The notes under the pieces are model-generated. The model was not told where the DNA came from, searched no databases, and saw only the letters and a program-made list of their open reading frames with translations. A stretch of DNA of 64,000 bases, from positions 831,001 to 895,000 of the forward strand of contig CP022585.1 in assembly GCA_002243285.1 (NCBI GenBank). Direction: 5' to 3'. This DNA comes from Candidatus Fluviicola riflensis. GTDB lineage: Bacteria > Bacteroidota > Bacteroidia > Flavobacteriales_D > Crocinitomicaceae. Shown here in pieces: positions 34,996 through 46,739 of this stretch (the first letter of the stretch is position 1; each line of letters begins with the position of its first letter). The translations under genes were made by a program, and so were the position numbers.

Positions 34996-35106
34996 CTTGT
35001 CATTTTCGGTCATAGAATAGTATAAAAACGAGTTTGATTGAAACGTTTAGTGTAATCATTTAGCGATTTTTGCGTTACATTGGTTGCTTACTTTGAAATT
35101 CAACCT

Positions 35107-38100
35107 ATGCGCACAGTCTTTTTCATCTATTGCTGGCTTTTCGCCGCCTCTTCGGTTTTTTCACAACGACCTGATTCCGTGCAGGTAAACGGCAAATGGT
35201 ATTTCGTGTACCCGATCAAAATGAAGTTGGAACCCACGGACAATTATTTGCGTGTAGTCGGGTTAACAGAGACCGAATTTGAACAATACCGCGATTGGAC
35301 ACAAGCCGGTGATTCGAGATTGAACCTGGAAAAAGATTCCCTGATCAAAGTCCTGCGAAAATCAATTGTTGATGATAAGATCTTAACCGCTGCGCAATAT
35401 GATGAACTACTAGAGGAGTATTCGGAGAAACAGATTCACCGTCATCGCACTTTTATTCGAACAACGAAACGACATAGCATTCGCCGCAAGTTACGCAACG
35501 CAGTCAGGGGATCTCACCGTTATCAAAGCACCAAGGTATTTAGTGTAAAACGCCTGGTGAATCGGAAAGATTTGCGTAAGGCTTTGCTTAAATCACCTTC
35601 AAATCAACATAGGACACAATTTTATTCGAATTACATGCTTCCGCCCAGTGAAAAGGACTTGCCCAATGGCAACTATATTCTGTATTTCGATGATTTCTTT
35701 TCAGCAGACGACTGGAAAGAATGGAAACTGAACCCGCTTCATACTGCAGCCACTTTCTCTCTTCAGAACAATTTGCTGCACGGAGAATACAGCGTTTTCA
35801 CGTATGAAGGCAGTCAACTGGTATCAGGAACCTACGAAAACGGGTTACGTCAGGGAAGCTGGCTGATCAGAAGAGAGATCGGTTCAGGTATTGACTATAG
35901 GGAAGGCTGGTGTTTTAACAGGAAATACAAGCCAGGAACAACCTCAAAGGATAGCTTGCTGCTTCAGTTTAATTATGACCTCCTACAGGGTGAAAACAGC
36001 AGTTTTTCACATTATGGATACGGGTCATATGTAAAAGACTGGACCGGTGAGTTTATAGCCGGATTACCAAATGGAGAATGGGAGCATGATAAATTCAGAG
36101 GATACACCTTCAGAGGTGATGTAAAAGCAACACGCGATTCTACCAATAGCGTATATGAACATCGGTGGGTCGACCTGGAACTACCATCTTCCGATTCCAT
36201 TTATGACTTTTCAGGATTCACTGACTATAACGACATTGATCTGTGGTCATTAAAGTCGGCAAAATGCGTCGAAAATTCAGGACTGGAAAGCATTTCTAAA
36301 ATAAGTGATTATCCGCTGTCAGAGTTCATGCAGTTACAATTCCCTGTAAAAACAGAGTTTTCATATTCTCCATTCAATAACCGGTGTGAGATCTGGAACA
36401 AAGAACCAGACAGCAGCTGTGTAGCACGTTTTTACCGTAATCACGCATTGAAAATCGTTGTGGGTTCTCGCTATTTCAACAACGGGGTATTGTTCGATAC
36501 TTGCGGATTTGATGAGCAGGGACAATTGGTCTACAAGCAATTTGACAATACCGGAAAATTATACCGCACTTCTCAGCTCAGTTCAAACGGGCGTATTTTG
36601 AGTACGGTTTTTACACATCCGCCGAAAAAAATGATCATTGATGGCTATGAAGTGATGCCGTCTTATTCAAAGGGTTTTTCCTGGGAAGGAGATACGCTGG
36701 TAGCGAATCGCAGGATTTTTGAATTGAAGTGGAGCGAACACTATAAATTGAACTTCGAGAATTATTACGATAAAGACCTACAGCAATTTGTAGAGAAATC
36801 ATACGATAACAAAACAGGTGAAACGCTTTTGACAATAACCACTCCCTTCACGAATGAAGAATTAGCTGTGATTGATTCAACCTATCAGGATGAAAACCAG
36901 AGATACTCGAAAGCCTATGTTCTACGCTCACGCAGGCACATGGCAAAGATTGATGCGTATGAAAAACGTGCCGTTTGGGGCGATCTCACCATACTTGAAG
37001 AATACAGCCACGGACAAAGAAAGGTCACGTTTTTTGCAGACGGAAAACCTTATGCCGGTACTGTGGAAGTGAAAACATACAGCGATGGATCTGATCGGTA
37101 TAAACTGAAGCGAAAAAAACTGGTCATTGAACTCAACCAATCATACCCTTTTGGTGGGAGAAAGCATATAATAAGACGCCCACGATGGATGAGATCGAGA
37201 ATCCCTTATGTGCTTTCAGATGCAATTCTGGAAGAACTCCCGTTGTTGTTTCAATTGAAAATTCATGAAAGGGATGAATTCAAGCAATCGGTAGAAAATA
37301 GTTTTCCTTACGAATTCAGTTCAGGTAACTTCATAAACGGTGTTCCGACGGGAAATTGGACGTTTATGAATAATGATAAAAAAGTAACGGCCGAAGTGAC
37401 TTATACTGGTAAAGCATCCAGTGGTTTTTTGTTTGAATATTGGATAAGAGCCGCAGATACGAAAGCAGAAAAGCTGGAGTACCTCACGGACCCGCTAAAA
37501 GAGCGCTATGAACCAGCTTGTAAGAAAAGCACCGATTATATCTATAAGAAAATAGCCATTGCCAACGGCCGCGAAGATGGTACTGCCGTTACCTTTAATC
37601 ACAAGGGAGATACCATTGCACTGGTCCACTACAAACAAGGAGAACTGCATGGCGATCAATGTTACATCTTTCCACACGATTATTACTCCGAAAAGGCGAA
37701 TAAATACCTCATTGGTACATTTGATGAAGGAAAACCGGTTGGCAAACAAATTGCGGTAAAAAAAGAATATACATCGGAAGAAGGCGGCGGTAAACTGGTA
37801 GTTGATACGATGGCTGTTGTCCATTTTGTAAACGGAAAAAGAGAAGGCAGAGCAAGGTTTCCGTACAAAACGCTTTCGTATGATCTAACATTTTCCAATG
37901 ATTTACCGGATAGGGAAATGGTCGTTAAAAACAATCGATCGGAAACAGTCCAGCGCTTTACTTTTATGTTTGGATATTTGCACCAGATGCAGCATTTCAA
38001 GGAAAACACCCTTTCGTATGAATACGAAATTTCACCACTCGATTCATTGAAGCTGGATATTGGCTATCTCTATGATGCTACCGAACCAGTAGATGAAGAC

Positions 38101-38805
38101 AATACCTATAATTGGGAATCCAGAGGTTTTGCAGATGAATTTATCAAACGCGATGAAACACCGAAACAAGCCGTGTTCACTAAATTTTACCCGAATGGTA
38201 CCATTGCACGCAGCGGTGAGTTGATGAAGGAAAAGAAACTGGGCCGGTGGACGTACGCAAGCGAAGATCAAAGCAGTTGGTATACGATTGATTATAAAGA
38301 CTCAATCTATGTTCAAAACGGTGATACGTTTTCAATCATCGGTGTGCAAACTCAGCTGAATGTTGACGGAAAAAGACTCAAAAAACAACTGGTGCTCGAA
38401 GAGAAAGACTTTTACAAATGCACCAGCGATGAATATTATTCCATTCGCGAATACATAGTACCTGAATTCTCCGCTTCTGGTGAAGATGCACTCAATTATT
38501 ACGACAACGGTGCGCTCATGAGCAAAGGGAAATTGACAAACGGCCTGCCGGATGGTTTGTGGCAATTTTACAACCAGCAGGGTGGGTTGACCCGAATGGG
38601 AATTTACAAAAACGGTAAAAAGATTGGCCGCTGGCTTGAAGGCGATCTCACCACCAAAGCATACCTCGGCGATATCTGTTTGGATGAATCAAATCCTGAT
38701 TTGGATGTAATCATCAGCCAGCTCGAGCGCGGAAAGAAAATCGAAGCAACGATTTACCGGAACGGAAAACCGGTGTCGAAACAAACCTACGAGTCCTCTA
38801 AATAA
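35107..38805 (+). CDS. large secreted MORN-like repeat protein, paralog 1
   Basis: A 1232-residue exported protein of unknown function. A signal peptide covers about 1-20 (SSVFSQ). The N-terminus RPDSVQVNGKWYFVYPI matches its paralog at 43044. Many short repeats of the form NG..G.W (for example SGTYENGLRQGSWLI, YYDNGALMSKGKLTNG, GLPDGLWQFYNQQGG) resemble MORN/YwqK repeats. No lipobox or T9SS tail is seen. ATG 35107 is preferred over the earlier TTG 35080, which lies upstream of a -7-like TTACTTTG (35088-35095). Its stop codon TAA is the first half of the transposon target duplication. Confidence 0.8.
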   Translation: MRTVFFIYCWLFAASSVFSQRPDSVQVNGKWYFVYPIKMKLEPTDNYLRVVGLTETEFEQYRDWTQAGDSRLNLEKDSLIKVLRKSIVDDKILTAAQYDELLEEYSEKQIHRHRTFIRTTKRHSIRRKLRNAVRGSHRYQSTKVFSVKRLVNRKDLRKALLKSPSNQHRTQFYSNYMLPPSEKDLPNGNYILYFDDFFSADDWKEWKLNPLHTAATFSLQNNLLHGEYSVFTYEGSQLVSGTYENGLRQGSWLIRREIGSGIDYREGWCFNRKYKPGTTSKDSLLLQFNYDLLQGENSSFSHYGYGSYVKDWTGEFIAGLPNGEWEHDKFRGYTFRGDVKATRDSTNSVYEHRWVDLELPSSDSIYDFSGFTDYNDIDLWSLKSAKCVENSGLESISKISDYPLSEFMQLQFPVKTEFSYSPFNNRCEIWNKEPDSSCVARFYRNHALKIVVGSRYFNNGVLFDTCGFDEQGQLVYKQFDNTGKLYRTSQLSSNGRILSTVFTHPPKKMIIDGYEVMPSYSKGFSWEGDTLVANRRIFELKWSEHYKLNFENYYDKDLQQFVEKSYDNKTGETLLTITTPFTNEELAVIDSTYQDENQRYSKAYVLRSRRHMAKIDAYEKRAVWGDLTILEEYSHGQRKVTFFADGKPYAGTVEVKTYSDGSDRYKLKRKKLVIELNQSYPFGGRKHIIRRPRWMRSRIPYVLSDAILEELPLLFQLKIHERDEFKQSVENSFPYEFSSGNFINGVPTGNWTFMNNDKKVTAEVTYTGKASSGFLFEYWIRAADTKAEKLEYLTDPLKERYEPACKKSTDYIYKKIAIANGREDGTAVTFNHKGDTIALVHYKQGELHGDQCYIFPHDYYSEKANKYLIGTFDEGKPVGKQIAVKKEYTSEEGGGKLVVDTMAVVHFVNGKREGRARFPYKTLSYDLTFSNDLPDREMVVKNNRSETVQRFTFMFGYLHQMQHFKENTLSYEYEISPLDSLKLDIGYLYDATEPVDEDNTYNWESRGFADEFIKRDETPKQAVFTKFYPNGTIARSGELMKEKKLGRWTYASEDQSSWYTIDYKDSIYVQNGDTFSIIGVQTQLNVDGKRLKKQLVLEEKDFYKCTSDEYYSIREYIVPEFSASGEDALNYYDNGALMSKGKLTNGLPDGLWQFYNQQGGLTRMGIYKNGKKIGRWLEGDLTTKAYLGDICLDESNPDLDVIISQLERGKKIEATIYRNGKPVSKQTYESSK

Positions 38806-38822
38806 AATAAGGCACTTATACC
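38803..38822. repeat. target duplication (left) and left terminal inverted repeat of the transposon
   Basis: TAAAATAA at 38803-38810 is identical to 43035-43042. Then the perfect 12-bp terminal repeat GGCACTTATACC runs 38811-38822. Pairing with the right end continues imperfectly for about nine more bases (7 of 9). The first three bases of the duplication are the stop codon of the upstream gene. Confidence 0.92.
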
Positions 38823-38914
38823 ATACAAACAGTTTAAGTTATAACTGATTGGTAATGTGCTGTTTATGTGTTTGTAAATTAATTTCATACTTAGTTGATT
38901 AAAATTCACTGGAT

Positions 38915-39241
38915 ATGGAGAACCAAAATGTTACTGCTGGAGATGTACTTAAACACTATCTTGAAACTATAAGTAAAGAAAGTAAGATATTAGAGGATGA
39001 AATAGACCTGCTATTCTCTAATCAACCTACCCAATCTGAAATTCAATCTTTATTTAAGAAAGTCAAACAGTTTTATAAGGAATACTCCGGCACAGTTCCA
39101 AAACTGATCGCAAATATTGGTATGATGAATTTCAGATCATTTATTAATACGCTCGATATAGCCACAAAGTTGCAACAACATTTTGATTCTAAACTTCGTC
39201 AGTTTTTGGATGAAAATGCTGACTCCACTCTTTCCAGTTAG
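38915..39241 (+). CDS. small protein of unknown function in the transposon
   Basis: A 108-residue soluble protein that I do not recognise. It appears mostly alpha-helical, with charged helices (ISKESKILEDEIDLLF, IQSLFKKVKQFYKEY). It lies 92 bases inside the left end of the transposon, on the same strand as the transposase. AT-rich composition matches the element, so it is a passenger gene or accessory factor. Confidence 0.6.
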   Translation: MENQNVTAGDVLKHYLETISKESKILEDEIDLLFSNQPTQSEIQSLFKKVKQFYKEYSGTVPKLIANIGMMNFRSFINTLDIATKLQQHFDSKLRQFLDENADSTLSS

Positions 39242-39374
39242 TTGAATCTTCATTAGGCACTATGTAAACTTTAATGGGACAATTTAGAGTTATCATTAGT
39301 ATGTTTAACTCTATCATCTGATTTCTTATAAAATCAGCTACTACCATTTTTTGGTGGTCTGAATAATTTTCCAT
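39189..39374 (-). CDS. possible 61-residue protein, antisense in the transposon
   Basis: An ATG-started frame in the 213-base gap between two plus-strand genes, overlapping the tail of the first by 53 bases. The sequence looks protein-like (IKVYIVPNEDSTNWKEW) but shows no motif. Without homologs it could as well be a chance frame in AT-rich DNA. Confidence 0.25.
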   Translation of the reverse strand: MENYSDHQKMVVADFIRNQMIELNILMITLNCPIKVYIVPNEDSTNWKEWSQHFHPKTDEV

Positions 39375-39454
39375 CTTAAATAAATATTAGTTAAATTGTT
39401 TTAAGTTAAAGAATTTATTTTGTAACATTGTAGACGAATCAAAAATGTTATGTT

Positions 39455-39823
39455 ATGAATTATGTTCAAGGATTAAAGTTTAGGCGTGATGAGTTAAAGG
39501 CGGTTAAAGATGAACTCGAAGCTAAATTAAAACCTGTACTTAAAGAGTACGACGCGATTATGAACCTTCTTAAAGTTGTTGAAGCTGAAAAGTATGTTCA
39601 GAACGACTATCCTTTAAAAGGTAAATTACAAGACAAGGTTTTATTTGCTGTTAACGAACTAAAGAAAGCAACTGCCCACCAAGTTATTGATTTCATGCGC
39701 CAACATGAAAGCGATATTTCCGAATCTTCGGTTGTTGTCACCTGCTCCAAGCTGTTTAAAACAGGAATTCTGCAAAAGGATAATGACAAAGGAAGAGAAA
39801 GCATTTACACGATAAAGCTGTAA
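39455..39823 (+). CDS. coiled-coil plus winged-helix protein in the transposon
   Basis: A 122-residue protein. Residues 5-45 form a charged coiled coil (FRRDELKAVKDELEAKLKPV). Residues 60-122 look like a winged helix (LFAVNELKKATAHQVIDFMR; SSVVVTCSKLFKTGILQKDN), suggesting DNA binding. It precedes the transposase gene and has its own terminator, so it may regulate transposition or be cargo. Family not recognised. Confidence 0.65.
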   Translation: MNYVQGLKFRRDELKAVKDELEAKLKPVLKEYDAIMNLLKVVEAEKYVQNDYPLKGKLQDKVLFAVNELKKATAHQVIDFMRQHESDISESSVVVTCSKLFKTGILQKDNDKGRESIYTIKL

Positions 39824-39828
39824 TAAAA

Positions 39829-39854
39829 AATCCCCTTGCGCCAACAGGGGGATT
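39829..39854 (+). terminator. hairpin between the winged-helix gene and the transposase
   Basis: A 7-bp stem AATCCCC / GGGGATT (39829-39835 and 39848-39854) follows 6 bases after the stop of the winged-helix gene. The T-run is weak (TCTCTTC), so termination may be partial. Confidence 0.6.
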
Positions 39855-39899
39855 CTCTTCACTTTCTTAACTCAATAAAGAATCAAAATTGTAAATGTT

Positions 39900-40823
39900 A
39901 TGTCTTACAAATATACGATTTCCAACTTTAGAACTGATTTCCCTGACGACAACACCTGTCTTGATAAGGTGTTTTCTCTTCGCTACGGATCACAAACCCA
40001 TTGCACAAAATGTGATAACGTGTTTTCCTATACAAGAGTAAAAGGTAGACAATGCTATCAGTGTGATAAATGTTACTATCAAATATATCCTTGCGCCGGA
40101 ACTGTGTTTGAAAATACAAAGACTCCATTGTTGTATTGGTTCTACGCAATATATTTGTTTACAGCTTCAAAAAACGGTGTCTCCGCAAAAGAAATAGAAC
40201 GCCAACTAGGAGTTACTTACAAATGTGCTTGGCGAATGCTAAAGCATATCAGAATTTTAATGGGTTCGCAACAGGTAAATATGTTTGAGGAGTCATCAAT
40301 TGTAGAATGTGATGAAACTTTTGTAGGTGGCAAGAACATAAACAGACACAAGGACAAAAAAGTAGAAAAATCACAAGGTCGGTCTTTCAAAGATAAAACC
40401 CCTGTATTTGGAATGTTTGAACGCAAATCAAAACAGGTTAAAGCGTTTGTAGTTCCGGACACAAAAGGTAAAACTCTAAAACCAATCATTTACAGCCAAA
40501 TTGAGACAGGCGCAAACGTATATACTGACGAATGGATCGCTTACCGTGGCATAGATAAATACTACAACCATCAATTTGTTGACCACAGCAAAGGACAATA
40601 TGCTGACGGTGATAACTCAACCAACCGAATAGAAAACGTGTGGAGTTGCTTTAAACGAACAATAAAAGGAAGCTATATAAAGGTTTCACGTAAATACCTA
40701 CAACTATACGTTGATGAGTCTGTGTTCCGTTTCAACAACAGGAACAAACCTATTTTTTACGAACTCGTGAACCTTTTGGGGTTAGAACCGAATCAAGAAC
40801 TTTGTCGAACTCAGACTTTGTGA
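39900..40823 (+). CDS. IS1595-family (ISXO2-like) transposase
   Basis: A 307-residue DDE-type transposase. A zinc ribbon lies at the N-terminus (Cys35, Cys38, Cys55, Cys58). A helix-turn-helix-like segment (SAKEIERQLGVTYKCAWRML) follows at 95-115. The catalytic core is ISXO2-like: Asp138 in VECDETFVGGK, Asp210 in VYTDEWIAY, His229, and STNRIENVWSCFKRTIKG with Asn242 or Glu245 as third residue. All key residues are present, so the enzyme looks intact. Its last 74 bases overlap the antisense 51-residue gene. Confidence 0.93.
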   Translation: MSYKYTISNFRTDFPDDNTCLDKVFSLRYGSQTHCTKCDNVFSYTRVKGRQCYQCDKCYYQIYPCAGTVFENTKTPLLYWFYAIYLFTASKNGVSAKEIERQLGVTYKCAWRMLKHIRILMGSQQVNMFEESSIVECDETFVGGKNINRHKDKKVEKSQGRSFKDKTPVFGMFERKSKQVKAFVVPDTKGKTLKPIIYSQIETGANVYTDEWIAYRGIDKYYNHQFVDHSKGQYADGDNSTNRIENVWSCFKRTIKGSYIKVSRKYLQLYVDESVFRFNNRNKPIFYELVNLLGLEPNQELCRTQTL

Positions 40824-40905
40824 CTGGCTTAACTTGTTGTTTACGTTCTAGTTCCTCAAAGCCTTTCGTTAGTTCGTCTACTGACTTTGTTTTAGGCTTT
40901 TTCAT
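40750..40905 (-). CDS. 51-residue charged protein following the Xre regulator
   Basis: A short lysine- and glutamate-rich protein (KTKSVDELTKGFEELERKQQ, KPVTKSEFDKVLDSVLTPKG, ending VRKK) encoded on the minus strand. It starts 17 bases after the stop of the Xre gene, so the two likely form one operon. Its 3' part is antisense to the end of the transposase gene. The composition looks like a real small protein, possibly an antitoxin-like or DNA-associated partner, but that is inference. Confidence 0.6.
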   Translation of the reverse strand: MKKPKTKSVDELTKGFEELERKQQVKPVTKSEFDKVLDSVLTPKGSRVRKK

Positions 40906-40922
40906 AGTACAAATGTATGGGA

Positions 40923-41240
40923 TTATTTTGATTTGGACTTTTCCCAGTTTATTGGGGTTGGCATCCTATTTTTCAAGTCGGCTTTCATGTTTCTCATGGT
41001 TTCAAGATAAAGTCGTTCTTCGTCGTCCTCTAACAACAAGAATTCAACACTAGTTTCTAAAGCTTCACTGATCTTAAAAAGAGTTTTGATAGTTGGGTTA
41101 GTTCGTCCAGATTCAATTCTTCTGAGCGCGGAATCTTCTATGCCAATTAAAGTGGCTAACTCTATTTGCTTGATACCTTTTTGATTACGTAGGGACTGAA
41201 TGGTTTTTCCAATTCTTTTGATGTATTCGTCCTCGTTCAT
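40923..41240 (-). CDS. Xre-family helix-turn-helix regulator
   Basis: A 105-residue regulator with a Cro/C1-type helix-turn-helix at about 10-65 (IGKTIQSLRNQKGIKQIELA; IEDSALRRIESGRTNPTIKT). A charged tail (LLLEDDEERLYLETMRNMKA) follows. It is divergent from the lipoprotein gene at 41337. The spacer has an ATCAAAA / TTTTGAT pair (41260-41266 and 41292-41298) that could be its operator. It may control the passenger genes or the transposase. Confidence 0.88.
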   Translation of the reverse strand: MNEDEYIKRIGKTIQSLRNQKGIKQIELATLIGIEDSALRRIESGRTNPTIKTLFKISEALETSVEFLLLEDDEERLYLETMRNMKADLKNRMPTPINWEKSKSK

Positions 41241-41306
41241 TCAGTGAAGTTATCGCGAGATCAAAATAATTTTCAGAACATTTATGATCGGTTTTGATTT
41301 TTCTCC

Positions 41307-41314
41307 TACATTTG
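41307..41314 (+). promoter_or_regulatory. -7 element of the passenger lipoprotein promoter
   Basis: TACATTTG is a full TAnnTTTG match, 22 bases before the ATG at 41337. No good -33 box. It lies just after the possible Xre operator pair. Confidence 0.55.
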
Positions 41315-41336
41315 CTTTGTACACAAAACCAATAAC

Positions 41337-41723
41337 ATGAAAAAACTAATCTTGTTCACTGTGCTATTAGCACTCTTCACATACTCCTGCAAGAAAGACG
41401 AGAAGAAAGACAGGACTATCACCTTCGACTACCAATTAGCTGACATGGATCATTTTGATGTGTCAGTTAAAAAGAATGGTGACATCATGTACGGTTACTC
41501 TGACGAGAAGTACACAGCTTACCCGCAAGGTGATGGTACATATTTGATGGGTTCCACTGAGTTCAAAGCCAAGAAAGGTGACCAAATAGCTGTTTACGTA
41601 GTAGACAACTTTGGATCAAATGAGCCTGTTAGTTTCACACTCAAAGTGAATGGTTCAACAGTCTCCACCACTGACGTAAACTCAATGGAGTCTGCTATCA
41701 GCATATCCTATACAGTGGAATGA
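41337..41723 (+). CDS. passenger lipoprotein of unknown function
   Basis: A 128-residue lipoprotein. Its signal peptide ends in the lipobox FTYSC (Cys18), followed by a lysine-rich stretch KKDEKKD. The mature part looks like a small beta-sandwich (FDVSVKKNGDIMYGYSDEK; SFTLKVNGSTVSTTDVNSM). No family recognised. It starts a run of four same-strand genes inside the transposon; the next gene overlaps its stop (ATGA). Confidence 0.7.
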   Translation: MKKLILFTVLLALFTYSCKKDEKKDRTITFDYQLADMDHFDVSVKKNGDIMYGYSDEKYTAYPQGDGTYLMGSTEFKAKKGDQIAVYVVDNFGSNEPVSFTLKVNGSTVSTTDVNSMESAISISYTVE

Positions 41724-41905
41724 GCACAGTTGGTTGGACCGTTTTTGTTATAGTCTCTGTTGTCATGGTTGTTCCGGGGCTTATAATCACTTTTAGTGAA
41801 AACAAGGAAAAGATCAATACCTCCATCAAAACATGGTTGCCCATAGTATTATTGATTTGGCTTATAATAGGTTCGATATGGGTATTTTCTGACATGAAAA
41901 GCTAA
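41720..41905 (+). CDS. small two-helix membrane protein
   Basis: A 61-residue protein that is almost entirely two transmembrane helices (WTVFVIVSVVMVVPGLIITF and WLPIVLLIWLIIGSIWVF) joined by a charged loop. It overlaps the lipoprotein stop by four bases, which supports translation. Function unknown. Confidence 0.6.
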   Translation: MSTVGWTVFVIVSVVMVVPGLIITFSENKEKINTSIKTWLPIVLLIWLIIGSIWVFSDMKS

Positions 41906-41910
41906 TAATT

Positions 41911-42270
41911 ATGAAAGCATTACTAACTTCTATATTCCTAATTTTCTCATTTGTTTCAACCGCGCAAGATGATTATTACAAGGATATCTCAGCTTCACAA
42001 ATAGTTTCTGTAATAGATAAAGTAGGTTTCTCTCCAACCAAGATAACAAAAGACGTTAAGGCTTTTAAAATTGTCATCTTACAGTTAGGAACTAATGAAA
42101 TAAAACAAGTCAACATAGATAGTTGGTGGTTATGTAACAACCGAAAGGATGATAATTTCACCATATACAATATGCTTTATAAAGAAGTGACAAAGGAAAC
42201 CTTTGATTTATACTGTAAGGAGTTAATTTCCCTAATGGTTTGTGATGGAACAGCGACACAGACAAACTAG
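41911..42270 (+). CDS. exported passenger protein of unknown function
   Basis: A 119-residue protein with a signal peptide (1-18, FVSTAQ). The rest holds two cysteines and aromatic residues (NIDSWWLCNNRKDDNF) but no known motif. It lies five bases after the membrane protein gene, so it is probably part of the same passenger operon. Confidence 0.6.
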   Translation: MKALLTSIFLIFSFVSTAQDDYYKDISASQIVSVIDKVGFSPTKITKDVKAFKIVILQLGTNEIKQVNIDSWWLCNNRKDDNFTIYNMLYKEVTKETFDLYCKELISLMVCDGTATQTN

Positions 42271-42290
42271 ATGTTAATCTTTCTATCTGA

Positions 42291-43001
42291 ATGAATATTC
42301 TTAACTTAGTGAGTAAATCTCACATAATGAAGTATATAAACATACTACACTATTTTCTAACCATTGGGCTTATCATTACTGTCATTGTCCTTCTATTGAA
42401 CCAAAACAAAATACAAAACCAACTATCTGATGACTCAGTAATCGAAAGCGTCAATTATCCGTTTGAAGAAAGAAATATGACGCTTATCCTCACTCTTATC
42501 GGAGTTGGGTTTGGTCTTTTCGCCCTCTTTACTTTTGGTGGGGTTAAACAACTCTTTGATGCAAAGGTTGAAGAAGTAAACGAACGCTATAACAAAGCAA
42601 AAAAGGATAATGAGACTCATCATAAAAGAATGAATAGGTTAGAGAAAGATTTGAACTATCAGCTGGCTGAAATACTATATGACAAAGCGTCTACACTAAG
42701 AAGTGGTGATTCGCCAAGTGTTTATGTTATGGTTGCTCTAGCAGCATGTGAAAAATACACACAAGTCCTGTCAGACTGCGAGGATGAGAATCAAAAATTT
42801 ATAGGGGGTGTCAATACCAGAGTTAGTAGTTTACTTGATGAAATAACAAAAGTAATTGGTATAACCAACAGAGATGTTGAAACTTCCAGTATTGATTTCG
42901 ATAGGTTTAAAAAGAGAGTCGAAAGAATATCAGCCCAGCTTAACAGTATCGACTTCGCTAAGTTTAATCATATTGTAAGTAAAATCAAGATTATTGATTA
43001 G
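42291..43001 (+). CDS. membrane-anchored coiled-coil passenger protein
   Basis: A 236-residue protein with two N-terminal transmembrane helices (about 18-37 and 63-84). A coiled coil follows at 85-130 (AKVEEVNERYNKAKKDNETH), then a helical domain. No family recognised. An ATG at 42327 is an alternative start that trims 12 residues. It is the last gene before the right end of the transposon. Confidence 0.6.
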   Translation: MNILNLVSKSHIMKYINILHYFLTIGLIITVIVLLLNQNKIQNQLSDDSVIESVNYPFEERNMTLILTLIGVGFGLFALFTFGGVKQLFDAKVEEVNERYNKAKKDNETHHKRMNRLEKDLNYQLAEILYDKASTLRSGDSPSVYVMVALAACEKYTQVLSDCEDENQKFIGGVNTRVSSLLDEITKVIGITNRDVETSSIDFDRFKKRVERISAQLNSIDFAKFNHIVSKIKIID

Positions 43002-43022
43002 ATTTTACGCACATGTTTTTAA

Positions 43023-43042
43023 GGTATAAGTGCCTAAAATAA
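43023..43042. repeat. right terminal inverted repeat and target duplication (right)
   Basis: GGTATAAGTGCC (43023-43034) is the reverse complement of the left end. It is followed directly by TAAAATAA (43035-43042). The start codon of paralog 2 follows after one base. Confidence 0.92.
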
Positions 43043-43043
43043 T

Positions 43044-46000
43044 ATGAAGCAACGAAGTTTACTGCTCTTATTTCACCTCATTACAGTCACCGTTATTGCC
43101 CAACGGCCCGATTCGGTGCAGGTAAACGGACAATGGTATTTTGTGTATCCCTTGCAGGAAAAAGTCGAGCCGACCAATGCCATTTTAGATAAACTGGATC
43201 TTTCGGAAGCACAGTTTAAGTTATTTAAAGAATGGAAACTAAGCAACGATCCACGCCTGAAATTATCCAAACACACCATGATCGATTCGCTGAACCGGGA
43301 ATTGATTCGCATAAAAATCACAGTGTCGAAAGAACAGAACAGGTATGAGTGGCGCAATGCGACCGAGGCTCCGAAAGTCAGCTGGCCAATGCTCCTGATG
43401 CGAAAAAAACACTGGTACAGAAAGTATCCCGAATTAATGCTTGTCCAGGATATCGATCAAAATCGCGACCTCGTTCCGGCAGTGCAGAATTTACCTAACG
43501 GAAAATACATCCAGTATTTCGAACCGGTGCTGAGCTACCACGGATGGAAAAAAAGTTCAGAACTTCCAACCAGGGTTGCAGCTATATTCGAGCTGAAAAA
43601 CAACCTGCCCGAAAATGAATTCACACGCTTTAACTACAAAGGTGATACTGTGCGTCATGGTTATTTCACTGACGGATTAAAAGAACGGCAATGGACCGTG
43701 AGCGATAGAGGAAGCCGGTTCCATACCGGAATTCATGGTTTGAGAGAAAACAGAACATTTTATAATTACAATTCTTCCATTCGGGTCAACCTGGAAAAAG
43801 GTATTCTCGAAGGAACGTTTTACAAATGGATTTCAGGTTCTTATCAACCGGTCGGCTACTTTAAAAACGGTTACGCCGATAGTATCTGGAAAACAGATCC
43901 TTATTACGCCTGGCGGACCAACGAAATAATTGACTACAATTCAATATTGGACAGTAATTACAATCAACCGCTTTCACTTGCAATTTTGCCATCAGTAAGT
44001 CTTTACAAACGATATGACGGGTTTGATTTCAAAGAGAAAAAAAACAGATACCTCACAATCTCGTATTTTAATTTACAGGAAGATCGCTACGAACAAGGTG
44101 TGCCTGCTTTACCGTTATCCGGGTTTGAGGATTTGTTTAGCATGCCAATGCGTACCGGTTTGAACGGCTTAAGAACGGTGAATGAAACCGATGGTTATAA
44201 TAGAAATACCGGTCAGGTCAATTTTCACGGTACCAAACAAATTTTCGAAGGAACCAGGCTCACCGAAAGATATACTTATCTGCCCGGTTTAGGCACGATT
44301 GTATATGCACGCTTCTTCAAAAACGGTGCGTTATTCGATACGCTTGGTTACGAGCCTCAAAACAAGTTGTTTGTACACAATATATATGATGTCAACGGAA
44401 AATTGTTTCAAACAACCACTTATAATACTTCCGGCGGACAGGTGCAGCAAATCAATTATTTCAAGCAAAAAGAAAAGAAGGTTCGCTATAAAAAACCAGT
44501 CGTCATCGACGGATTTGAAACTGAATATGTTTATTATTTCGGAACGAAACTTCGTGAGTGGGAAGGCAGCCGGGTTGTAGACGGAAAACAGTATACCCGG
44601 ATCAGATGGACGAAAACAAAAAGACGGCGTTCCGAAACGTACAAAGATCTGAGCGATTCTTTGGAGCATCAAGTGACGTTTAACCGAAAAGGGGAAATAG
44701 CTTTGGATGAGGCGTCGTTGCAGATAGGAATTGATTCGTCCCGAGGCTACAACAAAGGAATTTATGCAACACGCAATACGGTACCATATAAAGAAATGAA
44801 ACTGATTGAGGAGAACGAAAACGTTACAGATTCACCTATTGTGTTGACCTGCGCTGATCAACCTTATTCAGGACGAATGAGTATCAATTTTTCGAAGAAT
44901 AGGCTGAAACTGGATGATCAGCCAGCCGACGGATTAAACTGGACTATTCCATCAGATGAATCTTCTCGAAGCCTGCGCAAACAATTCATGGGGCTTTATA
45001 CGCCTGATGATTATTATCCGATGTCAATGAGTGAGCGGCCTTATTACCTCAGAGATAAAGATTTCGAAACCCCGTTCTCACATGTGATGGACAGACTGTT
45101 TCACGATCAGTTCAATTTGTACCTGGTAGATCGAATGGAAGGCGAATTTCAAAACGGACAACCTTCTGGTAACTGGAACTATTACAACAAAAAAGGTGAA
45201 TTGGTCTTTACGTTGAATTTTGTGAACGGCTTGCCAAATGGAGATGTTATCGTTTTTGGAGAATATGTTGGTCCTAATAAGTACGACCGGAAATACCACC
45301 AGGATGAACCCTATTATACATTCCTGTTTTCGAAAGATGCTCCGAAAAATTACCGCAGGGAAACCTATCATTTTACCGATGGTAAGTTAGACGGCCCCAA
45401 AGTAACGTATACGGCAATGGGTGACACGCTCGAGATTGAAGTTTACAAAGCTGGTCAACTTCACGGGAAAACCTGGCGACGTGAGGACGACGATGTGTTC
45501 CTGGAGGAATACCAAAATGGGAAACTCCATGGGTTGGTGCTCGAGGGCAGGCTGGAATACAACGAGAGGGATGAGGTTGTGATGGATACCTTGAGTTTTG
45601 CGCATTATAAAAATGACCTTTTACATGGCGATTGTTATTTTGAGTTCTATGAAAACAATTATGATCGCGAAGATTATGGCGATGAAAGAAGAGGATGGGG
45701 TTATAACCGTAGTTATAAGCAGGCACTGAAAACAGTAAAATGTCAGTTTCACGAAGGATTGCCTCATGGTAATTATGTTCAGCGGTTGGAGTCCGGTGAG
45801 ACTGAATTTGCTGTATCACTCGCCAAAGGAAAAGTTGACACGCTGACGTTTTTCGAAAATGGTGCTCCTTCTTATTACTATGATTACGTTGAACAAGAGC
45901 GATTGCAGCCTTATTCATTTTCCGATTCTGCTCGTTTAGGCTTTAAAACACGCTTTTTCCGTGATGAGAATCTGGAGAGCAAGTTTAGTAACGGGCTTAT

Positions 46001-46739
46001 AGTTGAGTACGGAAACAATGCTGACGAACTTAACATTTATGGCGGTTACAGGAATCCTACAATCGAAGATTACAAACAAGGGCGTTTCACCAAACTGTAT
46101 CCCAACGGAAATATTGCCCGTCGTGGTTATCGAATCGGGGATAAGAATTGGGGCGACTGGGATTTTTACAACTACAACGGCCAACGTTTGTATTCCATCG
46201 ATTATGGAACAATGACAATTGTCATGCATGGGATTACTTATACTGAATCGGAGATAAAAGGTGTGTATATAGAATACGACAGCCTTGGCGAACAAATTTG
46301 CAGAGGAGCATTGATCGAGGAGCTGGAAAAATACGATTGCGCGCATTCCGATTATTATGCCATTCGCCAGTTCATTATTATCGAAGACAGGCAAGATGAA
46401 TACGAGCGAACCAATGGCCCCATGAAGTATTACTTCGACAACGGAATGCTCATGAGCGAAGGAACCTTGAAAAACGGAATGCCGGATGGTGTTTGGATGT
46501 TTTACACGCCCGACGGCAAACTCACCCGGATCGGGAAATACGTCAACGGCAAAAAAGAAGGCCGCTGGCTTAAAGGCGATCTCGGCGATAAGAAATACAT
46601 CGGTGAAATTTGCCTGAACCCCGATGATCCGTTACTGGATTTTCACATAGCCGAACTGGAACGCCTGCGCGATGTGGAAATTGTGATTTATAAAAACGGC
46701 ACGGCTCAAATCGAGCAACAATACGAGGTAACAGATTAA
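43044..46739 (+). CDS. large secreted MORN-like repeat protein, paralog 2
   Basis: A 1231-residue paralog of the 35107 protein. A signal peptide covers about 1-19. RPDSVQVNGQWYFVYPL follows as in the paralog, and the C-terminal part also aligns (YYFDNGMLMSEGTLKNGMPD, GVWMFYTPDGKLTRIGKYVN, GKKEGRWLKGDL). Repeats of the MORN/YwqK type run through much of it. Function unknown. Before the transposon arrived it started six bases after paralog 1, so it was probably the second gene of an operon; it now needs read-through or a promoter in the element's right end. Confidence 0.8.
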   Translation: MKQRSLLLLFHLITVTVIAQRPDSVQVNGQWYFVYPLQEKVEPTNAILDKLDLSEAQFKLFKEWKLSNDPRLKLSKHTMIDSLNRELIRIKITVSKEQNRYEWRNATEAPKVSWPMLLMRKKHWYRKYPELMLVQDIDQNRDLVPAVQNLPNGKYIQYFEPVLSYHGWKKSSELPTRVAAIFELKNNLPENEFTRFNYKGDTVRHGYFTDGLKERQWTVSDRGSRFHTGIHGLRENRTFYNYNSSIRVNLEKGILEGTFYKWISGSYQPVGYFKNGYADSIWKTDPYYAWRTNEIIDYNSILDSNYNQPLSLAILPSVSLYKRYDGFDFKEKKNRYLTISYFNLQEDRYEQGVPALPLSGFEDLFSMPMRTGLNGLRTVNETDGYNRNTGQVNFHGTKQIFEGTRLTERYTYLPGLGTIVYARFFKNGALFDTLGYEPQNKLFVHNIYDVNGKLFQTTTYNTSGGQVQQINYFKQKEKKVRYKKPVVIDGFETEYVYYFGTKLREWEGSRVVDGKQYTRIRWTKTKRRRSETYKDLSDSLEHQVTFNRKGEIALDEASLQIGIDSSRGYNKGIYATRNTVPYKEMKLIEENENVTDSPIVLTCADQPYSGRMSINFSKNRLKLDDQPADGLNWTIPSDESSRSLRKQFMGLYTPDDYYPMSMSERPYYLRDKDFETPFSHVMDRLFHDQFNLYLVDRMEGEFQNGQPSGNWNYYNKKGELVFTLNFVNGLPNGDVIVFGEYVGPNKYDRKYHQDEPYYTFLFSKDAPKNYRRETYHFTDGKLDGPKVTYTAMGDTLEIEVYKAGQLHGKTWRREDDDVFLEEYQNGKLHGLVLEGRLEYNERDEVVMDTLSFAHYKNDLLHGDCYFEFYENNYDREDYGDERRGWGYNRSYKQALKTVKCQFHEGLPHGNYVQRLESGETEFAVSLAKGKVDTLTFFENGAPSYYYDYVEQERLQPYSFSDSARLGFKTRFFRDENLESKFSNGLIVEYGNNADELNIYGGYRNPTIEDYKQGRFTKLYPNGNIARRGYRIGDKNWGDWDFYNYNGQRLYSIDYGTMTIVMHGITYTESEIKGVYIEYDSLGEQICRGALIEELEKYDCAHSDYYAIRQFIIIEDRQDEYERTNGPMKYYFDNGMLMSEGTLKNGMPDGVWMFYTPDGKLTRIGKYVNGKKEGRWLKGDLGDKKYIGEICLNPDDPLLDFHIAELERLRDVEIVIYKNGTAQIEQQYEVTD

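Follow-up and report, generated by a model that had tools for sequence, protein, structure and literature searches.

Ends and insertion site of the element

The stretch of Candidatus Fluviicola riflensis DNA analyzed here (contig CP022585.1, positions 831,001 to 895,000; 64,000 nucleotides, hereafter the window) contains a pair of paralogous genes, each some 1,240 codons long, at 35080-38805 and 43044-46739, and between them an element of 4,224 bp (38811-43034) flanked on both sides by TAAAATAA. An initial annotation, made from the letters alone, had proposed a complete IS1595-type transposon with passenger genes at this place, and transposase family, duplication, exact ends and an empty site in a related genome all agree with it. 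The features that delimit the element and assign it to a family are the following (aa, amino acids).

38803-38810, no strand: left target-site duplication TAAAATAA, which begins with the three-base stop codon of the upstream gene
38811-38822, plus strand: left terminal inverted repeat GGCACTTATACC, with imperfect pairing continuing to about 38831
39900-40823, plus strand: transposase, 307 aa, with zinc ribbon C35/C38/C55/C58 and catalytic triad D138, D210, E245
43023-43034, minus strand: right terminal inverted repeat, the reverse complement of GGCACTTATACC
43035-43042, no strand: right target-site duplication TAAAATAA

Read directly, the coordinates and the 12-bp perfect inverted ends of the initial annotation are exact to the base, as is its 8-bp duplication; the partial pairing it saw further inward corresponds to arms that continue imperfectly to about 22 nucleotides and are 91% complementary. 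At the true pair of ends, 13/14 and 20/24 end bases match, against 11/14 and 14/24 for the best of 70 decoy placements elsewhere in the window, none of which comes near. The interior has a G+C content of 35.0%, compared to 42.9% for the rest of the window, where it is the sole stretch of this kind. Two flanking insertion sequence (IS) copies, which would make a composite transposon, are not what bounds it: the ends are arms of about 22 bp, and there is one transposase.

The transposase open reading frame (ORF) is intact and matches Pfam DDE_Tnp_IS1595 (1.4e-43), Zn_ribbon_IS1595 at its amino terminus (6.1e-7) and NCBIfam transpos_IS1595 (5.5e-60), the initial annotation having called it ISXO2-like; D138, D210 and E245 are invariant in an alignment of eleven relatives. 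A peptide-pattern search of genome contigs returned distant transposases only. Seven groups are named in the IS1595 family: ISPna2, ISH4, IS1016, IS1595, ISSod11, ISNwi1 and ISNha5. As in that family, a single transposase gene lies between the ends and the target duplication is 8 bp long, a length with which the empty site agrees. The N-terminal zinc ribbon is present in all groups except IS1016, and the duplication length of the family is 8 bp (PMC8101967), as the initial annotation had stated; family and scar thus show no mismatch in length.

The pre-insertion state is preserved as an orthologous empty site in a congeneric genome (G112), of the kind that the initial annotation had suggested looking for. 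In G112 both flanking orthologues are adjacent, and their junction consists of a stop codon, the six bases AGCACT and an ATG; removal of the element and one duplication copy from our genome leaves a stop codon, AATAAT and an ATG. When the joined flanks are aligned with G112, the alignment crosses the junction without a gap. Neither flanking gene was broken by the insertion, although the second is now separated from the first. The element is single-copy in its own genome and absent from all 13 other congeneric genomes examined, so the region was not met in a different, non-duplicated context. The scar and the empty site together show that insertion proceeded by cutting at the ends and by a target cut staggered by 8 bp.

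The flanking genes (35080-38805 and 43044-46739) are tandem paralogues whose products measure about 1,240 aa and have MORN-like repeats. G112 has the same tandem pair, and each of the 14 genomes of the genus contains further relatives.

Genes between the ends

Besides the transposase, the interior contains the following features, numbered P1 to P9 with the transposase in third place.

38915-39241, plus strand: P1, 108 aa, no family above its cutoff
39455-39823, plus strand: P2, 122 aa, N-terminal long helix and MecI/BlaI-like winged helix (Pfam Penicillinase_R 9e-6)
39829-39854, plus strand: strong RNA hairpin, located after P2 and before the transposase gene (z = -2.8)
40750-40905, minus strand: P4, 51 aa, convergent with the transposase gene and overlapping its 3' end
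40923-41240, minus strand: P5, Xre-family regulator (HTH_3 5.6e-16), divergent from P6
41241-41336, no strand: 96 bp separating the divergent P5 and P6 genes, the likely operator
41337-41723, plus strand: P6, 128-aa lipoprotein (MKKLILFTVLLALFTYSCKK)
41720-41905, plus strand: P7, 61-aa two-helix membrane protein, 4-bp overlap with P6
41911-42270, plus strand: P8, 119-aa exported protein with signal peptide
42291-43001, plus strand: P9, 236 aa, two hydrophobic helices at the N terminus plus a coiled coil; translation may instead begin at the internal ATG at 42327

The AlphaFold model of P2 has a predicted local distance difference test (pLDDT) score of 84, with MecI as best fold match (E 2e-3). 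When a hidden Markov model (HMM) was built from five class-wide element proteins, P2 excluded, P2 was the only extra match among 11,049 ORF fragments (E 6e-5); with P2 included, the HMM found one more match in fresh genomes, inside the bounded element L224 (E 2e-8), and none outside elements. As for P4, a homologue occupies the same convergent position in a sister element, L162, with an alignment score of 68 compared to 29 +/- 5.5 for shuffles (0/1000). Because P2 and P4 recur in related elements, they are probably parts of the element and not random cargo. The 'Xre pair' of the initial annotation did not hold: it resolves into one Xre (40923-41240) and P4 (40750-40905), which has no helix-turn-helix match.

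A tail motif near the 3' end of the transposase, F[DN]xxLxx[AILVM], was also considered as a general feature. It had been picked after examples were seen, and its frequency in the discovery set (13/242 compared to 32/6,100, p 6e-9) fell to 0/109 in fresh genomes; it was therefore dropped as general, being present in nearer relatives without phylum-wide replication. The homology of P4 to its L162 counterpart is independent of this motif and stands on its own. The hairpin is a possible terminator that would shield the transposase from read-through; a search for RNA families found none.

P6 to P9 are closely packed, with a 4-bp overlap between P6 and P7 followed by gaps of 5 and 20 bp, and therefore probably form one operon. 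No relatives of this operon were found in any data searched, and the structure model of P9 is poor (pLDDT 51). A phage or plasmid origin of the cargo was considered as well, and searches of plasmids with P2, P6 and P9, of phages with P8 and of viral contigs with P1 and P9 were all empty. The region between P5 and P6 holds a match to a -7 box of the TAnnTTTG type at 41307, but shuffled sequence contains boxes of this type at least as often.

Six elements of the bacterial family bear an Xre gene; in every one it is divergent from a cargo gene, mostly one for a lipoprotein or exported protein. Its density in family elements is 171 per Mb inside compared to 7 outside (p 4e-4), and in the class sample 49 compared to 5 (p 0.004). 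Three other elements (L174, L187 and L200) encode an Xre protein of 69-70 aa right after the transposase and on the same strand, overlapping it by 4 bp or lying 1-3 bp away, unlike the divergent Xre in the family of the window element.

Related elements and the frequency of cargo

Relatives were bounded by a scan for exact duplications and inverted ends, in which reversed-arm decoys gave none. The same genome contains two more such elements, L047 and L048, of 3,158 and 2,864 bp. Like the window element, they have exact ends, 8-bp duplications (AAAAATTA and TTAATCAA) and passenger genes, and L047 also has a divergent Xre; their transposases are, however, only 43% and 36-38% identical, and their cargo differs, consisting of a KilA-N protein and an 88-aa protein in L047 and of four unknown proteins in L048. 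The same construction was found in seven other genomes (G030, G060, G059, G131, G185, G096 and G075), at lengths of 1.4-5.6 kb. IS1595 transposases of the same bacterial family that are more distant belong, in contrast, to plain elements of 0.96-1.05 kb.

Cargo varies even between close transposases. Those of L047, L050 and L051 are 73-89% identical, but their elements carry respectively the KilA-N protein, 88-aa protein and Xre already mentioned; RadC and RhuM-type proteins; and a 241-aa protein, an Xre and an exported protein. L162 (G482, 3,458 bp), whose transposase is sister to ours in the tree, shares with the window element the convergent P4 homologue, exact ends, an 8-bp duplication and exported-protein cargo, but has other cargo genes and no Xre or P2 that we could find. 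Across the clade, cargo is mostly unannotated; the genes that could be named include one for a methyltransferase in L173, others for P63C and KilA-N proteins and, in L163 and L198 respectively, those for a PemK-like toxin and a ClpP-like protease.

The class survey, in which a profile of eleven transposases was run against 396 genomes (E up to 1e-85), bounded 36 of 59 transposases (decoys 1/118), and 34 of 35 distinct elements exceeded 1.2 kb. For replication, the order chosen first offered only 3 genomes and the second 26; a fresh phylum set of 30 loci gave 20 bounded elements, all longer than 1.5 kb (decoy 1/33). Pooled, 54 of the 55 exactly bounded elements of both samples are longer than 1.2 kb, the length taken here as the mark of cargo without every internal ORF being verified as a gene; the longest, of 8.6 and 11.7 kb, are possibly nested. 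IS1595 elements that are named or more distant measure about 1 kb. A tree of 123 transposases places every one of the 68 rows from cargo-length elements in a single clade (bootstrap 94/88); 3 plain elements are nested inside it and 10 lie outside, as do 8 of 9 named IS1595 elements. IS1595, ISPma1, ISKpn3, ISPepr2, ISRm32, ISCsp2, ISAcr1 and ISH4 (found in plasmids) are outside the clade of the window element. These results suggest that passengers are the rule in this transposase clade in the sampled Bacteroidota; loci were sampled by similarity to cargo-bearing transposases, and the result therefore describes the clade and not the family.

Several elements are worth recording in their own right. 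L161:4654-8604 (3,951 bp, 24/24 identical ends) carries a methyltransferase along with a type I specificity-like subunit, together a restriction-modification module as IS1595 cargo. L049:5796-11381 (G096), L052:7556-12160 (G075) and L170:694-12435 (G501), from three genera, each have shared ends (GATAATTAT.CCC) and exact 8-bp duplications, and enclose a pair of paralogous IS1595 transposases. The tree splits these transposases into two old lineages, one with L049_9209, L052_8093 and L170_8600 (100/96) and the other with L052_9185 and L170_7441 (100/81) and L049_8202 nearby, so that the pair seems to have been kept together; catalytic residues are intact in the four that were checked, and a two-protein transposase is a testable idea. 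L051:8030-11150 (G060) has exact ends and a duplication but a transposase with an internal stop (TAA), and is probably defunct but recently inserted. Outside Bacteroidota, exact-ended cargo relatives are present on a Geminicoccaceae plasmid (L124:5932-8458, CP122394) and a Treponema succinifaciens plasmid (L129:5331-7299, NC_015386), which suggests transfer between phyla. For relatives on Bacteroides plasmids, at 44% identity, no element ends were resolved.

Interpretation and known systems

We consider the window element to be an IS1595-family transposon that is complete and autonomous and carries cargo, or 'transporter IS', with a probability of about 0.93. Indeed, P1 and P5 to P9, which are unrelated to transposition, lie between the exact ends. 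The transposase would recognize the 12-bp ends, together with some nine partly paired bases, and would have placed the unit of 4,224 bp between the tandem paralogues, at an AT-rich target of 8 bp, duplicating TAAAATAA. One part of the element would be linked to transposition, namely the transposase, with P4 at its 3' end, as well as P2, which probably tunes transposase expression or end use. The other would be exchangeable cargo, composed of P1 and an envelope operon for the lipoprotein, membrane, exported and coiled-coil membrane proteins P6 to P9, which P5 probably represses, along with itself, from the shared 96-bp region. The operon most likely alters the cell surface or periplasm, to the benefit of the host. 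We infer that the element may still be mobile, by the route proposed for other IS1595 elements.

Several observations weigh against parts of this picture. No movement was observed, and there is a single copy only. P2 is present in a minority of elements. The Xre enrichment of the family and class samples is gone in the fresh phylum sample (p 0.6), and Xre was rejected as a general core gene. Finally, the envelope role comes from signal peptides and helices alone, because P1 and P6 to P9 have no annotated relatives; an Xre-gated envelope operon is our best guess for the cargo function, at roughly even odds.

That a plain IS1595 element trapped extra genes by chance, its outer repeat being a coincidence, might be imagined from the plain 0.96-1.05 kb elements of the same bacterial family. 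The chance of this is negligible: inverted ends, 8-bp duplication and orthologous empty site all point to precisely the same boundaries, 38811/43034, with no decoy scoring as high, related elements of 1.3-5 kb are built alike, and the empty site refutes it. The main rival concerns the cargo, which could be a defence or toxin-antitoxin module with P5 as antitoxin or repressor and P9 or P1 as membrane-acting effector. Clade elements do carry restriction-modification genes (L161, L173), a MazF/PemK-like gene and RadC, KilA-N and RhuM-type proteins, and Xre proteins are common in such modules, but they are too common for diagnosis, and PADLOC matched only P5, as a generic helix-turn-helix, with no match for P1 or P6 to P9 and hence no known defence system; we regard this alternative as rather unlikely. 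It is very improbable that the element is mobilizable, with a transfer origin and borrowed conjugation machinery as in MTnSag1 and tISCpe8: profile scans of its nine ORFs revealed no relaxase or mobilization gene, the transfer origin itself not having been searched for, even if its restriction to one species and foreign composition, and the two mobilizable IS1595-type elements already known (PMC5704250), would fit.

Returning to a cargo-carrying transposon, a broader and tentative idea is that it represents an undescribed, large Bacteroidota lineage of IS1595-transposase cargo transposons, possibly with proteins of the P2 and P4 type as dedicated control parts, an Xre gating the cargo, and cargo swapped freely (envelope here, restriction-modification elsewhere). 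The recurrence of P2 and P4 makes dedicated control proteins testable. Most records of IS1595 elements are of 1-kb insertion sequences, and passengers count as exceptions. For one transposase clade, the sampled Bacteroidota genomes suggest the opposite, in that nearly every boundable element carries other DNA, mostly unannotated. An exact-ended, cargo-swapping gene shuttle would help to explain the movement of small unknown genes and some restriction-modification genes in the phylum, and offers a ready means to delimit such genes. In a literature search that did not cover the 2009 family paper, we found no description of the window element, its cargo or the clade-wide cargo pattern, and no report of cargo-bearing IS1595 elements as the rule in Bacteroidota.

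The kind of element is itself already known, because IS copies with passenger genes ('transporter ISs') were recognized along with the IS1595 family (Siguier et al. 2009, as cited in PMC3129680) and two mobilizable IS1595-type elements, MTnSag1 and tISCpe8, are described (PMC5704250). The latter two resemble the window element in their IS1595-family transposase, passenger gene and 8-bp duplications. As far as that account goes, they are mobilizable, have 25-bp ends and include a lincomycin resistance gene (tISCpe8, from the title of ref. 29 in PMC5704250), whereas the window element has 12-bp perfect ends and no resistance gene. Compared to the transporter ISs known so far from the cited account, the window element stands apart by its nine ORFs, its 4.2 kb and passengers without annotated relatives, but it shares with them a zinc-ribbon and DDE transposase, an 8-bp duplication, ends that start with GG, and unrelated passengers between those ends.

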